Assembly (NCBI RefSeq): GCF_025370775.1
Contig: NZ_JAMXEX010000007.1
Coordinates: 62,001 to 126,000 of the forward strand
Reading direction: 5' to 3'
Length of the DNA stretch: 64,000 nt
DNA from: Ancylothrix sp. D3o
Lineage (GTDB): Bacteria; Cyanobacteriota; Cyanobacteriia; Cyanobacteriales; Oscillatoriaceae
Position numbers and translations under genes: made by a program. Below are positions 4,967 to 52,743 of the stretch, piece after piece; position 1 is the first letter of the stretch; each line of letters opens with the position of its first letter. The notes beneath the pieces were generated by a model. The model searched no databases, was not told the origin of the DNA, and worked only from the letters and a program-made list of their open reading frames with translations.

Positions 4967-6316
4967 ATGGACATCACCGAAGTGCTAAACCTCGCAGATG
5001 CACTAATGTTTATGAAAACCGGCAAGCACTTAGACCATCTACAAAAAGCCGTAATTGAGGGAACATTTGAAGGCAAAACCTATCAAGAAATCGCCGACGA
5101 AACTTATCAAAGTGAAGGTCATGTAAGGAACACCGGCTCAGAACTCTGGAAACTCCTATCAGAAGAATTAGGAGAAGAAATTAATAAATCAAATTTTAAA
5201 ACAATCATTAAAAAAGTGGAATTTAACCATAACACCGGTCATGTAACAGTTAATACTCTCAATTTCTGGACTGAAACTAAACTAACACCCACCGGCACCC
5301 ATCCATCCCAAAAAAAACCAACCGAACAACATCTAAACCTCAACGACGCACCGGAAATATTATCCTTTTACGGACGCGAAAACGAACTCATCACCCTACA
5401 AAACTGGATACTCGAAAAACACAGCCGGCTGATTGCAATATTAGGAATGAGGGGAATTGGAAAAACCACCCTCGCCATTCAACTCATCGAACAAATAAAA
5501 CCCCAATTTGACTACATCATTTATCGTAGTCTGCGCTTTTCTTCCACCCCAGAAACAACCCTCACCAACCTCCTGCAAATCTTCTCTCCTCCAGAAATTC
5601 CTAACAACATCGAAACCCAACTTTCCCAACTCCTCGATTACCTCCGCAAATATCGCTGTTTGATTATTCTTGATGATGTGCAAATGCTATTCACCGCTGC
5701 ACAACCGGCAGGAAACTATAAAACCGGCCTCGAAAATTATCAACGATTCTTTCAACTCATCGCCGAGGTTTCCCACAACAGTTGTCTGCTGTTAATTAGT
5801 TCCGAAAAACCGCGAGAAATTACCAATTTTGAAAAAGAAAATAAACCTTGTCAGGCTTTAGTTTTAGGCAGTTTAGGAATTGCAGCTAAAGAAATTTTAA
5901 AAGAACAAAATTTAACCGATGAAGAAAGCTGGGAAAGTTTAATTAATATTTATCAAGGAAACCCCCTTTGGTTACAGCAAACCGGCACCCTCATCAAAGA
6001 ATTATGCGGCGGTAGATTAGGAGAGTTTTTGCAATTTGAAATGCCGGTTATTTGTGAATCTTTGACAGCAATTTTAGATGATGCTTTTCAGCGTTGAACG
6101 GAAGAAGAGAAAGCTATGCTTTATCAGATTGCCGGTGAAGCAGAGCCGGTTAGTTTGGGGCAAATTTTTAAGAAAATGCAAGGTTCATCTACGGCATTAT
6201 TTAACCTTATTTATTCGCTGAAAAGCCGGTTTTGGATTGAGGCAATTGAGCGGGATAAAATGACTTTTTTTGCAGTGGGTGCGGTTGTTAAAGAGTATTT
6301 GAAAATGCAGCGGTGA
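4967..6316 (+). pseudogene. STAND/NB-ARC ATPase with vWA-MoxR-associated N-terminal HTH, interrupted by TGA
   Basis: One reading frame of 450 codons broken by TGA at 6095-6097. Residues 1-85 (MDITEVLNLADALMFMKTGK, then EGKTYQEIADETY) match the N-terminal winged-helix-like domain found on cyanobacterial vWA-MoxR-associated and NACHT/NB-ARC proteins. A P-loop NTPase follows: Walker A ILGMRGIGKTTLA near residue 160 and Walker B CLIILDDVQ. After the stop the same frame continues with TEEEKAMLYQIAGEAEPVSL and 50 more residues, which align with the C-terminal winged-helix part of the intact relative at 18770. There the stop position is occupied by Ile. Either the first 376 residues are made as a truncated ATPase or the gene is recently dead. 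It has no sensor repeats or effector domain. Confidence 0.8.
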
Positions 6317-6366
6317 TGGGTGCCGGTGATGGGTGCCGGTGATGGGTGCCGGTGATGGGTGCCGGT
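6313..6366. repeat. 13-bp tandem repeat, four copies
   Basis: GTGATGGGTGCCG repeated four times without change (6313-6364) plus a partial unit. The first copy supplies the TGA stop codon (6314-6316) of the interrupted ATPase gene, and the array runs into a GGTTTCAACCGG palindrome. Confidence 0.9.
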
Positions 6367-6418
6367 TTCAACCGGCGACAAATTGATTATATGAGCCAGT
6401 TTTTAATACCATCAAATT

Positions 6419-47404: not shown

Positions 47405-47535
47405 TCTACACGAAGAAAGTCGCCGGTTGAAACCGGCGACTACAGGAAGAAAGTCCTACGGACTACAGAAGAAAGCTTTGTAACCCCGGAGGGGTTTTAT
47501 TCATGTAGACGCCGGTTTTAACCGGTGGCTAATAT
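47405..47535. repeat. Composite palindromic repeat, left copy
   Basis: Three adjacent palindromes: GTCGCCGGTT-GAA-AACCGGCGAC-type (47419-47440), AGTCC-TACG-GACT (47452-47464), and AACCCC-GGA-GGGGTT (about 47482-47496). Positions 47481-47510 are the exact reverse complement of 50428-50457 (30/30), and 47450-47465 of 50473-50488 (16/16). Confidence 0.9.
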
Positions 47536-47600
47536 GGGTGGCGTTTCAGGGGCGTTTATGTGTGGGAGTTGTCAGAATTGGAGGCCGGTGTTTTTGGGTT

Positions 47601-49481
47601 TTAGAAGCAAATTTCTCCATTATCTAGCTTGGTTTGAAGTTTCTGTTTAACGTTGTCCGTTGATTTAACATCCTCTATTAGTTTGTGGAGATCAGTGTGG
47701 CGCTTATCTTGCCGAAGCTCTATGATAAGGTCGATTGTATTTTGCCTCATTCCTACGCCTCTAAATGCTTGCACCAGTTCTTCTTTGCTGGCAGTATTGA
47801 TATTCACCGGCTTTGTTGGTGGTACCTGATTTCCTATTGGCTGAGCTTTTTTTGGTTCAGCTTCGTCAATTTCCCCGTCTAAGGGAGGTTCCGGGTGATC
47901 AATTTTGTACAATTCCGGGTTATCAACTTTGTGCAAAATTTGATCAATCGAATCTAGTAGAAGCTTTAATTGTTTATCTGCTTGGATAAATTCAATGTTC
48001 TTAATCTCTAATTTCTTGAGCAAAAGCGATTGACATGAAGGTGCAATTATAAAAGCCAGATCGGGAGGATTGCCATTAACCGAAAAAGGTGTAAATTTAG
48101 CATCTTTTAACCACTCATCAAAAGTAGTTAAATGTTTACTCAAAAGGTCATAGTTTTTTGCCTCACCAAATGCTTTAGCTACTGCGTATCCATTATGCAA
48201 TAACTCTACATAGCAGTCGAAAGCGTGGGTTATATGGCCGTTAGGTGTATCACAAGTGATGGAAGTTGTGGTAGGATATACCTTAACTTCATACTGCTTT
48301 TGCTTTAAAAATGTTGCCCATTTCTCTCGACATTTTGCCTCTACTAAATCCCGTGCTTTATTCTCATATACATTAAAGTTTTTGTCAAAATGATTAAAAT
48401 ATTTTTCGTGAATTTCTTTGACTTTACCTCCATATTTTTGGCAAAAATCTCGTAAAGTATGACAATCTTTTCCTGGTTCTACATTTATTGCTTCTATTTC
48501 TTGCCATGCTTGCTTAAAATCTTGGCAACCACTATAGGCATCTTTTATCCTTTTAGTAATTTGTTCTTTAATTTTTTCGCACTCTTCTCTACGGAAAGGT
48601 ACTAACATGACTGTTGAGCCAGATATTTTAGCTGCTAAAGCAGCATCGCTTTGAATAAACTTATCTACATCATCAGAGATACCAACCACATACATCATTA
48701 ACTGGACTTTCCCTTGATACTTATCAAACGAGCGATTAATTAATGCTCTAATGATTGCTCTTGCCCCTGCCATATATTCTGCGTGGCTTTTTAAGGCATC
48801 AAGCTCATCAATGAGATAAACAAATCTAAATGCTGGCTCTTTTTGCTTAACGCCATCAATCAATTTGAAGAAAAGTTGTTCAAAATTTACACCATGTTTT
48901 CCTAGTAAATATTCAGTGAATAGCTCACTAAATTTGTTATCCGAGCTAGTTGATTGTTGAAGTTGAGCAAATTGCTCAGTTTTGAGTATCTCTTTGAGAA
49001 AATCCTCGCAGCTTGTTTTAACGTTTTGCTTAATTTGAGAACCATTTTTCAATAATTCCCACAAGGTTTGCACCAAAATGTGACAGTATAATTTGACGCC
49101 AAAACTTTCCTTTCCCGCTATCGCTAATAAATCATTCAAGGAAAAATTGACAACGACTGAATTAACGCTGTGTTTTGGTTCTACTCTAATTAATTCTCGA
49201 AAGTAATTGAGCAATGCAGTTTTACCACTACCGGGTGTAGCCGCAATAAATCTGAACGTGAAAAAGCCCTCTTCAAAATTATGTTTAATATCATCCTTGA
49301 GCAGTTCAGTTAAATTAGAAATAGGCCAACCAGACAAGCTGTTTGCTGTGTTATATTGGCCATCAGTCCCAAATTTTCTAACTTCTCGCTCAATCCATAT
49401 ATCTTCAATAAACCCATTACCTTGGCTAACTTGGTGAAGGAAGTCGCGTAAAATTCTTTTTTTTCCAGCATCTTCAGGCAT
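47601..49481 (-). CDS. AAA+ ATPase - predicted PD-(D/E)XK nuclease - HhH fusion
   Basis: 626 residues. Residues 1-320 are a P-loop ATPase: Walker A AATPGSGKTALL (K87, T88) and Walker B FVYLIDELDAL (D225, E226), with an R-rich sensor-like region. Residues about 378-500 fit a restriction-endonuclease fold: helix with E381, D422 in HAFDCYVEL, and the E440-A-K442 motif in KAFGEAKNYD, then alternating helix/strand LAFIIAPS. Residues 558-612 are a ComEA-like helix-hairpin-helix region (VNINTASKEELVQAFRGVGM). ATP-driven DNA binding and cleavage is a reasonable inference. The start is three bases after the partner's stop. No known defence family was recognised, so this is a strong candidate for an undescribed system. 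Confidence 0.82.
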   Translation of the reverse strand: MPEDAGKKRILRDFLHQVSQGNGFIEDIWIEREVRKFGTDGQYNTANSLSGWPISNLTELLKDDIKHNFEEGFFTFRFIAATPGSGKTALLNYFRELIRVEPKHSVNSVVVNFSLNDLLAIAGKESFGVKLYCHILVQTLWELLKNGSQIKQNVKTSCEDFLKEILKTEQFAQLQQSTSSDNKFSELFTEYLLGKHGVNFEQLFFKLIDGVKQKEPAFRFVYLIDELDALKSHAEYMAGARAIIRALINRSFDKYQGKVQLMMYVVGISDDVDKFIQSDAALAAKISGSTVMLVPFRREECEKIKEQITKRIKDAYSGCQDFKQAWQEIEAINVEPGKDCHTLRDFCQKYGGKVKEIHEKYFNHFDKNFNVYENKARDLVEAKCREKWATFLKQKQYEVKVYPTTTSITCDTPNGHITHAFDCYVELLHNGYAVAKAFGEAKNYDLLSKHLTTFDEWLKDAKFTPFSVNGNPPDLAFIIAPSCQSLLLKKLEIKNIEFIQADKQLKLLLDSIDQILHKVDNPELYKIDHPEPPLDGEIDEAEPKKAQPIGNQVPPTKPVNINTASKEELVQAFRGVGMRQNTIDLIIELRQDKRHTDLHKLIEDVKSTDNVKQKLQTKLDNGEICF

Positions 49482-49484
49482 AAT

Positions 49485-50063
49485 CTACTCTATCCAATTA
49501 ATAAGATCATCTTCTCTTCCAGCAACCACTGAAATTTCACCTTGAGATTTCAGTTTTTCAAAGAACTTTTCAAGCAGAGTTTCAGAAATAGCGTTTTCCT
49601 CAATAAACTGCCGAAATAGCTGTTTTTTCACAATGGCAACTACACCCCGTAACTGTTGCTCTTTTCTTTGTTGAAAATAAAGTTTTTTAAACTTCTCAAC
49701 AAATGTCTCAAAGTCCATCTCCTCAGCCGCAGCCGAGGAAACTACAGTCTCAGGAGACAGTAATTTGAAGCAACTCAAAAGAGCATTTAGCATTTTTGGC
49801 CCTTTCGCGGACTCAAATTTATAATCTGTGGTTTGCAAATTTGCTACTAAGGCTTTTTTCCCCAACTCTGTCACCGCAAGCCGGCTTGCTTTCAGAGATT
49901 CTAGTAACTTTTGCTGACACAAATCTTCACAAATTTGATCCGCTTTTTTCTTCACATCTGCCGGCAAATTGCCTTTAACATCACCCTTTTTTACCGTCCC
50001 GTCTGTCGAGTAAGCAACCGCGAAAAGCAGATAAAGCATTTGTTCGGTGGAAAGCTTAGCCAT
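49485..50063 (-). CDS. Winged-helix-like partner protein
   Basis: 192 residues, helical. An N-terminal region (MAKLSTEQMLYLLFAVAYST, then ICEDLCQQKLLESLKASRLA and VTELGKKAL) resembles a winged helix with a wing-like LAVTELGKKA segment. The C-terminal half is charged helices (DFETFVEKFKKLYFQQRKEQ). AGAGAGGA at good spacing before the ATG. It is the first gene of a two-gene operon with the ATPase-nuclease, three bases apart. Could be a regulator or DNA-targeting subunit. Family not recognised. Confidence 0.7.
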   Translation of the reverse strand: MAKLSTEQMLYLLFAVAYSTDGTVKKGDVKGNLPADVKKKADQICEDLCQQKLLESLKASRLAVTELGKKALVANLQTTDYKFESAKGPKMLNALLSCFKLLSPETVVSSAAAEEMDFETFVEKFKKLYFQQRKEQQLRGVVAIVKKQLFRQFIEENAISETLLEKFFEKLKSQGEISVVAGREDDLINWIE

Positions 50064-50344
50064 AAGTTCCTCTCTTCCCCTTAATCCGGGGTTGTGTGTG
50101 CTTGAGTCTTCAAAAAATCACTCTGGCAAACTTATAACACAATCCACCGGCCTCTGGCTGAGTAACATTGCTTAACATTAGTCCCATTCATCACCTATTG
50201 CCATTGTCTCTGCAAACAACACTTAGACTATTATAAAGTGCTGTTCTCGCATTAAAAAAACTTTAACAAATCTTCATTTTTAGCTTTATATTTAGCAGCC
50301 CATAGGCTCTTTTAATATTCTTTTTCTGGAGAAAAATATTTTCT

Positions 50345-50640
50345 AAGTCGTCCGTTGAAACCGACATCTACATGAATACAACCCCTTCAAGATTAGAAGT
50401 TTATTATTTAGACACCGGTTAAATAGCGTCTACATGAATAAAACCCCTCCGGGGTTAGAAAGCTTTATTATTTAGTCCGTAGGACTTTTTTCGTGTAGAC
50501 GCCGGTTTCAACCGGCGGCGAATAGGGGTGGCGTTTAACCGGCAGCGAATAGGGGTGGCGTTTAACCGGCAGCGAATAGGGGTGGCGTTTAACCGGCAGC
50601 GTTTTTCGTGTGGATGCCAATTTTAACCGGCGGCTTTTTT
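50345..50640. repeat. Composite palindromic repeat, right copies, with 27-bp tandem triplication
   Basis: A degenerate copy at 50345-50400, then 50428-50457 and 50473-50488 as perfect inverted matches to the left copy, a CGCCGGTTT-CA-ACCGGCG palindrome near 50500-50517, and three identical 27-bp units at 50518-50544, 50545-50571 and 50572-50598. The remaining part of 50064-50779 has no gene. Confidence 0.92.
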
Positions 50641-51711: not shown

Positions 51712-52212
51712 CTATTCCGCTAATTCACTCTCCCACTCACCCGTTTCGCCTGGGTAAAATTTCTCGTCTAAAATTGCTGCAAGAGTGTAAAGACATTCGG
51801 CGGGAAAAGTGCGTTTTGGTAAATCAGTTTCTCCAGACGCTAAAGCTACACTTTTGTTGAAGTAAACTTCCTCTACTGCTTCTGCTAGGTAAGGTTTTAA
51901 ACTGGGATTTTGCTTTAATAATCTCCCAATATCAAAGCGTTGTACTCGAATTGTATTCAGCCAACTACGACTACGCCTCTCTGGTTGATACTCCCATTTC
52001 AGCAAATGTCCGATTAAAATACTAAGCCGGTTTTCTAATTCCCGCCGTTCTTGTTTACCCAAAGATTCAACCTCCTCTATCAGATTTTCTAAATCAATAG
52101 CATGGAATTGACGGTTACGAAGTAACTGTGCTTGTTCTTGTGTCCACGCATAAAAATCAGTCTCATAAAGACCGGAAGTAGACGTTTTTGGGCCGGTTTC
52201 TGAAGTGTGCAT
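51712..52212 (-). CDS. DUF29 family protein (copy A)
   Basis: 166 residues. DUF29 pattern YETDFYAWTQEQAQLLRNRQ, AIDLENLIEEVESLGKQERR, ELENRLSILIGHLLKWEYQP and a C-terminal FPAECLYTLAAILDEKFYPG. DUF29 genes form large families in cyanobacteria; function unknown. Tandem with a close paralogue at 52246: the central parts are nearly identical at DNA level, the C-terminal halves differ. Confidence 0.88.
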   Translation of the reverse strand: MHTSETGPKTSTSGLYETDFYAWTQEQAQLLRNRQFHAIDLENLIEEVESLGKQERRELENRLSILIGHLLKWEYQPERRSRSWLNTIRVQRFDIGRLLKQNPSLKPYLAEAVEEVYFNKSVALASGETDLPKRTFPAECLYTLAAILDEKFYPGETGEWESELAE

Positions 52213-52245
52213 AAAATTTTTCCTTTCTTGGGTTTTTCACTGTTT

Positions 52246-52743
52246 TTAATCTTCCCATTCCTTAACCAAATCACTCGCTTCTCCGGGGTAAAACTCCTCG
52301 TCTAAAATTTCTGAGAAACTGTAAAGACACACTGTGGGAAATGTGCTTTTGGCTAACTTTGTTTCTAATTTTGCCAAATCTCTACCATTTTCGTAAGCTT
52401 CTCCCACAGCTTCTTCTAAGTAAGGTTTTAAACTGGGGTTTTCTTTTAATAGCTTCAATGTATCGCGCCGTTGAATACGAATGGTGGCTAACCAACTGTC
52501 GCTACGCCTTTCTGGTTGATACTCCCATTTCAGCAAATGTCCGATTAAAATACTAAGCCGGTTTCTGAGTTCCCGCCGTTCTTGTTTTCCCAAAGATTCA
52601 ACCTCCTCAATTAAATTTTCTAAATCAATAGCATCAAATTGATGATTACGAAGTAACTGTGCTTGTTCTTGTGTCCACGCATAAAAATCTGTCTCATAAA
52701 GACCGGCCTTTTCTGTGGGGGGATGACTTTCTGAAATCTGCAT
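52246..52743 (-). CDS. DUF29 family protein (copy B)
   Basis: 165 residues, same domain pattern as copy A (YETDFYAWTQEQAQLLRNHQ, then AIDLENLIEEVESLGKQERR). Differences cluster in the C-terminal third. Separated from copy A by 33 bases, so likely a shared operon. No other motif. Confidence 0.88.
   Translation of the reverse strand: MQISESHPPTEKAGLYETDFYAWTQEQAQLLRNHQFDAIDLENLIEEVESLGKQERRELRNRLSILIGHLLKWEYQPERRSDSWLATIRIQRRDTLKLLKENPSLKPYLEEAVGEAYENGRDLAKLETKLAKSTFPTVCLYSFSEILDEEFYPGEASDLVKEWED

Follow-up and report, generated by a model that had tools for sequence, protein, structure and literature searches.

GTAG-tagged REP dimers have been described previously, Cyanobacteria being included among their hosts (Di Nocera et al. 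2013, PMC3733652). The element analyzed here lies in the window (the whole 64,000-nucleotide stretch of Ancylothrix sp. D3o DNA under analysis) and resembles these dimers in several ways: both are short GTAG-tagged stem–loops, a likeness by description and not by consensus sequence; the reported inverted dimers lie 20–100 bp apart, and 61 nt separate the tags of the window element; its inside tags correspond to the TT type; and both are found mostly between convergent and unidirectional genes. The window element differs in having two extra terminator-like stem–loops inside the dimer, in being low-copy, and in the unrelated gene cassettes that lie between neighboring copies.

REPINs (Bertels and Rainey 2011, PMC3116915) likewise consist of two inverted REPs that form one large hairpin and are dispersed as a unit, and tandem clusters that include flanking DNA are reported for them. 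REPINs are accompanied by a RAYT transposase, whereas none was found in the host genome; the window element has the long hairpin of two inverted REPs that marks a REPIN but lacks a cognate RAYT. A study of small variable segments between direct repeats (PMC2884548) likewise concerns short accessory segments that are flanked by repeats and serve as sites of gain and loss, although most repeats there are under 30 bp, whereas here one repeat family of about 60–110 bp is involved. A search of the host genome, which is 95.7% complete, for the Y1 transposase domain (PF01797) gave no matches at E ≤ 0.001, with 5 of 14 control genomes positive, and mobilization of the element by a RAYT was rejected because no Y1_Tnp was found. 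The small dispersed repeats of cyanobacteria (Elhai et al. 2008) are reported to be modular and probably mobile as well as small, and the window element resembles them by this description, not by sequence. The element is of the REP/REPIN/BIME kind, lineage-specific and of unusual internal design. A literature search, in which the closest papers were covered in part, found no published description of REP-bracketed cassettes; the bracketing pattern is real in the host genome, and from it we infer a mechanism.

The starting point for the analysis was the claim of an earlier note that perfect 30-bp inverted repeats flank a two-gene module at this locus. The exact match is in fact 32 bp long, with 47481–47512 being the reverse complement of 50426–50457, and direct sequence reading agreed with the note that 47450–47465 and 50473–50488 are also exact reverse complements and that the three palindromes it named are present. 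Aligned without gaps, the arms match over 92 nt at 92% identity, and with gaps 100 of 112 positions (89%) are identical in inverted orientation. For sequences 200–3100 bp apart, the longest exact inverted match ranged from 12 to 22 bp across 16 further 20-kb stretches from this genome, and both remaining parts of the window gave 14 bp. Chance base pairing therefore does not account for the arm match. Each arm represents a single copy of a composite palindromic element of ~110 bp.

Alignment of the 17 near-full copies from the same genome shows a shared architecture, which runs REP hairpin A, CTAC, stem–loop B, a short variable spacer, stem–loop C, a T-rich stretch, GTAG and REP hairpin A′. The CTAC that follows hairpin A is GTAG on the opposite strand, and the composite is two GTAG-tagged REP hairpins face to face with two terminator-like stem–loops in between. 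Motifs for stem–loop B (AGTCC/GGACT) and stem–loop C (AACCCC/GGGGTT) each match in 16 of the 17 copies, and GTAG on the A′ side is found in 15. The REP hairpin, CGCCGGTTNNAACCGGCG, has the 6–13 bp stem with GTAG at one foot that characterizes GTAG-type REP stem–loops.

In the left composite (47421–47532, plus strand; delimited, as was the right one, by BLAST, alignment and folding), pattern scanning placed REP hairpin A (CGCCGGTTGAAACCGGCG) at 47421–47438 with no mismatches to the searched pattern (C7:109421–109438) and REP hairpin A′ at 47510–47527 with one mismatch, the sequence having GTAG ahead of it at 47505–47508. A terminator scan placed the terminator-like stem–loop B at 47452–47464 on the minus strand with its T-rich tail leftward, and stem–loop C, also terminator-like, at 47482–47496 on the plus strand with its T-rich tail rightward. 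The right composite (50408–50517, minus strand) is inverted relative to the left and has one degraded REP arm (GCTATTTAACCGG); the same scans located its terminator-like stem–loops C (50442–50456, minus strand) and B (50474–50486, plus strand) and its REP hairpin (50500–50517; C7:112500–112517). An additional partial copy, comprising the stem–loop C side and a REP, aligns at 50354–50386 (minus strand) with 88% identity to 47490–47522. Elsewhere in the window, a 13-bp tandem array (6311–6383) leads into a lone REP hairpin belonging to this family.

The window copies fold whole as a large hairpin, with z scores of −8.9 and −5.2 as DNA; across four copies z ranged from −5.2 to −8.9, and no shuffled sequence was equally stable in five foldings, one copy having been folded on both strands. 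In some foldings B and C are side arms of the long hairpin. In each window copy, both B and C read like terminators on their outward strands, and the terminator scan found 6 such sites in the region versus 3.4 in shuffles. An Rfam identity was also considered and rejected: the two matches, both to one microRNA family, scored 32.9 and 27.4 bits versus a gathering threshold of 92 and were taken to be palindrome artefacts.

The earlier note held that hundreds of copies in all intergenic regions, with no structural variation at this locus, would make the flanking position coincidental. Because the host genome holds 79 raw BLAST places, or 42 sites when places are merged within the stretches fetched around them, ∼17 of them near full length, the element falls short of hundreds of copies. 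The REP hairpin pattern occurs 62 times in the host genome versus 4 times for a reversed control pattern. The element is absent from all 39 relatives searched (no match at E ≤ 1e-6), and scanning for exact patterns in a large genome collection, which may omit the host genome and its nearest kin, found no element.

By gene calls from a simple dicodon script, not a standard gene finder, the element is multi-copy and mainly extragenic, with 39 of the 42 sites intergenic, 2 within predicted genes and 1 at the end of its stretch. The intergenic sites comprise 21 co-directional, 14 convergent and 4 divergent gaps, versus 106, 27 and 46, respectively, among 179 background gaps of at least 100 bp, so that convergent gaps are enriched for the element (14/39 versus 27/179, p 0.006) and divergent gaps are depleted of it (p 0.04). 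The left arm occupies a convergent site, and the right arm one of the four divergent sites, the least used class, which we weigh against our preferred explanation. From the position of the left copy, we predict that the element most likely ends transcription both ways between convergent genes.

Copies of the element are also clustered, with 8 adjacent pairs less than 3.5 kb apart where 0.93 are expected under random placement. When all 42 sites were compared together with 150-nt flanks, a direct neighbor was the genome-wide best match for 9 of the 15 sites that have a neighbor within 4 kb, an outcome reached in none of 20,000 shuffles. In a comparison of the element alone among the 17 near-full copies, only four pairs are reciprocal best matches, and all three neighbor pairs are among them (p 3.5e-5, labels shuffled), though the p values for sister copies are only guides since neighbor pairs within one cluster are non-independent. 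The window pair ranks 2 of 136 in this comparison, at 0.894 identity, and its arms are mutual best matches; with 15-nt flanks included (133 columns), the window arms are 76.7% identical versus 78.9% for the better match and are not mutual best matches. That flanked comparison counts against our preferred explanation, as do the 6 of 15 neighbor sites whose best match is not a neighbor and the low scores of two pairs, C2:505/508 and C20:26/29.9. Locus-specific tails beyond the element are common to the copies within the C13 cluster and to those within the C20 cluster. Neighboring copies less than 4 kb apart are sister copies more often than shuffles allow.

These neighbors are mostly in direct orientation: the direct score exceeds the inverted score in 9 of 11 near pairs, versus 311 of 656 distant pairs scoring over 40. 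Nine neighbor pairs have a direct best match and one is a tie at very low score, leaving the window pair as the sole neighbor pair with an inverted best match. Even at the window locus there is a direct component. Alignment shows a 61-nt direct repeat (85% identity) at 47486–47546 and 50477–50536, both on the plus strand, the left copy of which includes REP A′ and a locus-specific tail, so that the direct match continues beyond the REP into a 20-nt tail. This tail (GGCTAATATGGGTGGCGTTT) lies at 47527–47546 on the left by pattern scan, and on the right, by alignment and pattern scan, in three copies in a 27-bp tandem array (starting at 50517, 50544 and 50571; 50517–50590), again on the plus strand. 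The array adjoins the right arm at 50513–50597, and its unit is a REP half plus the tail. With at most one mismatch, the tail occurs at this locus only genome-wide, with one copy on the left side and three on the right. A further 7 places matched by the tail pattern have 3 mismatches each, and a reversed control pattern matched 5 places.

Most of the brackets hold accessory-type genes, such as toxin–antitoxin genes, Uma2 and the ATPase module of the window bracket. The C1:627–629 bracket encloses a 75-aa protein with PemK/MazF, plus a two-gene pair with a weak Gp49-like match, and C20:29.9–31.4 encloses two PemK/MazF genes, one next to DUF2281 and the other next to a small partner. The C13 bracket holds a retropepsin-like protein; C1:732–734 an uncharacterized protein and one with a sigma-70 region 4-like match; and C2:505–508 a GTPase, a GAF protein and Uma2, the first two of which are not obvious cassette genes and count against our preferred explanation. 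The host genome has eight MazF genes; two such clusters account for 3 of them, and the 1.5-kb flanks of the other 5 contain no element. Several enclosed genes are AT-rich for the host genome, the GC content of the ATPase gene falling at the 3rd percentile and that of one MazF pair at the 1st, while others are ordinary (27th–46th percentile). In C20 (L061:3873–5502), three direct REP copies share a TTCGATAA-type tail and separate two PemK/MazF toxin–antitoxin pairs of opposite orientation. Downstream of recG, the host genome also carries REP-bracketed toxin–antitoxin genes; in all 19 of the 19 relatives, a search of the 1.5 kb around recG did not find these genes. The host genome additionally encodes a GUN4-domain kinase.

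The module enclosed at the window locus consists of a 626-aa P-loop ATPase (47601–49481, minus strand; profiles and alignment) and a 192-aa partner (49485–50063, minus strand; profiles). The ATPase has weak Pfam matches to AAA_22 and ATPase_2, a conserved D..GEAK stretch and a C-terminal HhH-like region. The D-x-Y...GEAKNY stretch is conserved in 10 of 11 aligned homologues and, read by eye, appears PD-(D/E)xK-like. The exception, homologue L034, has lost the D, E and K of this stretch and carries a C-terminal TIR domain (E 2e-17), which suggests that its effector has been exchanged. Members of the partner family weakly match Mrr_N (6 of 12) and a winged-helix model (4 of 12). PADLOC gave no convincing model for the window proteins, profiles of both families gave no convincing match among solved structures, and structure prediction for the nuclease-like stretch reached a mean pLDDT of 45, below usable quality. 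The module looks like an undescribed two-gene conflict system, a candidate for defense that PADLOC does not cover. Homologues occur in 7 of 100 relatives and in 8 of 386 genomes across the phylum, with the host genome counted in both sets and one genome shared between the latter set and the relatives. In the relative G009 (contig C80; L065, L150), the module homologue has an EF-Ts-like gene on one side and, on the other, the gene upstream of recG. Beyond the module, a tandem DUF29 gene pair (51712–52743) is 84% identical over 300 nt.

The module interval lies between the genes for an 881-aa membrane protein and a metallo-hydrolase. The glycosyltransferase-like and metallo-hydrolase neighbors lie on different contigs in all six relatives in which both are complete (G002, G005, G007, G011, G027 and G032), and so no relative shows the window junction, and the comparison yields no empty site. 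No same-genus genome was found for comparison among the relatives and collections scanned, and scans of genome contigs turned up neither the ATPase nor the repeat. The earlier note had proposed that the inverted match could allow inversion or capture of the segment. Capture is indirectly supported, because neighbors are sister copies above shuffles and enclose accessory genes, while inversion of the module is unsupported. The other clear-match neighbor pairs are all direct, so inversion is not the rule.

The explanation we consider somewhat probable on balance is that the arms are sister copies of a dispersed, lineage-specific composite element that bracket a two-gene accessory cassette gained by recombination or duplication. 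A cassette would be gained beside or between element copies through recombination or segment duplication, giving a direct [element-tail]-cassette-[element-tail] layout, as at C1:627/629, C1:732/734, C13 and C20. All such brackets would have arisen direct, and at the window locus the interior of one composite (the right, or the left) may later have flipped, probably by recombination between that composite's own inverted REP ends, such that it now reads inverted. Local hopping, in which the element transposes preferentially nearby, accessory regions tolerate insertions and the enclosed genes are bystanders, is a serious but less likely alternative. It accounts for neighbors being sister copies and for most of the 42 sites enclosing nothing and sitting near gene 3′-ends, and REP clusters reiterated together with flanking DNA are already known; it sits poorly with the predominance of direct orientation, the duplication of tails outside the element and the share of MazF genes within such clusters.

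The remaining alternatives fit the data less well. An invertible switch, with the 2.9-kb segment turning over within the population through recombination at the arms, seems quite improbable: the exact match of 32 bp and the inverted homology over 112 nt could provide a substrate, but no promoter logic for a switch was seen, and all other neighbor pairs with a clear best match are direct. Despite their close bracketing of the module in the host genome, the repeats can hardly be terminal inverted repeats or attachment sites of the module as a mobile element. No recognizable recombinase was found among the profile matches of the module, the same element sits at about 40 other places without it, and among the best 25 matches per locus at E ≤ 0.1 no spanning inverted repeat was found at 12 other module-homologue loci, 10 of them complete. 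Because none of these 12 loci has such a repeat, the repeats do not belong to the module itself. Direct hairpin-forming sites behind small toxin–antitoxin cassettes also recall an integron-like cassette array with palindromic attC sites, yet the sites are scattered behind ordinary genes and not arrayed, and no integron integrase scored above the curated cut-off (12 matches, the best at 82.9 bits versus 265), making this reading very improbable too.

Returning to sister copies around a gained cassette, the data hint that the repeat takes part in the gain or loss of small optional genes. A broader and distinctly tentative extension, which we think rather unlikely as it stands, is that REP composites make up a dispersed capture system that works without a recombinase, with accessory cassettes (toxin–antitoxin, defense-like) gained and lost by recombination between copies that leaves sister copies and a duplicated tail behind, and with occasional interior flips from direct to inverted. 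The pattern bears on how small defense and toxin–antitoxin genes are gained and lost where neither a transposase nor an integrase is involved. REPs are usually regarded as structural or regulatory litter; if the REP copies on either side of such genes regularly prove to be sisters, REPs would be a footprint of cassette gain.
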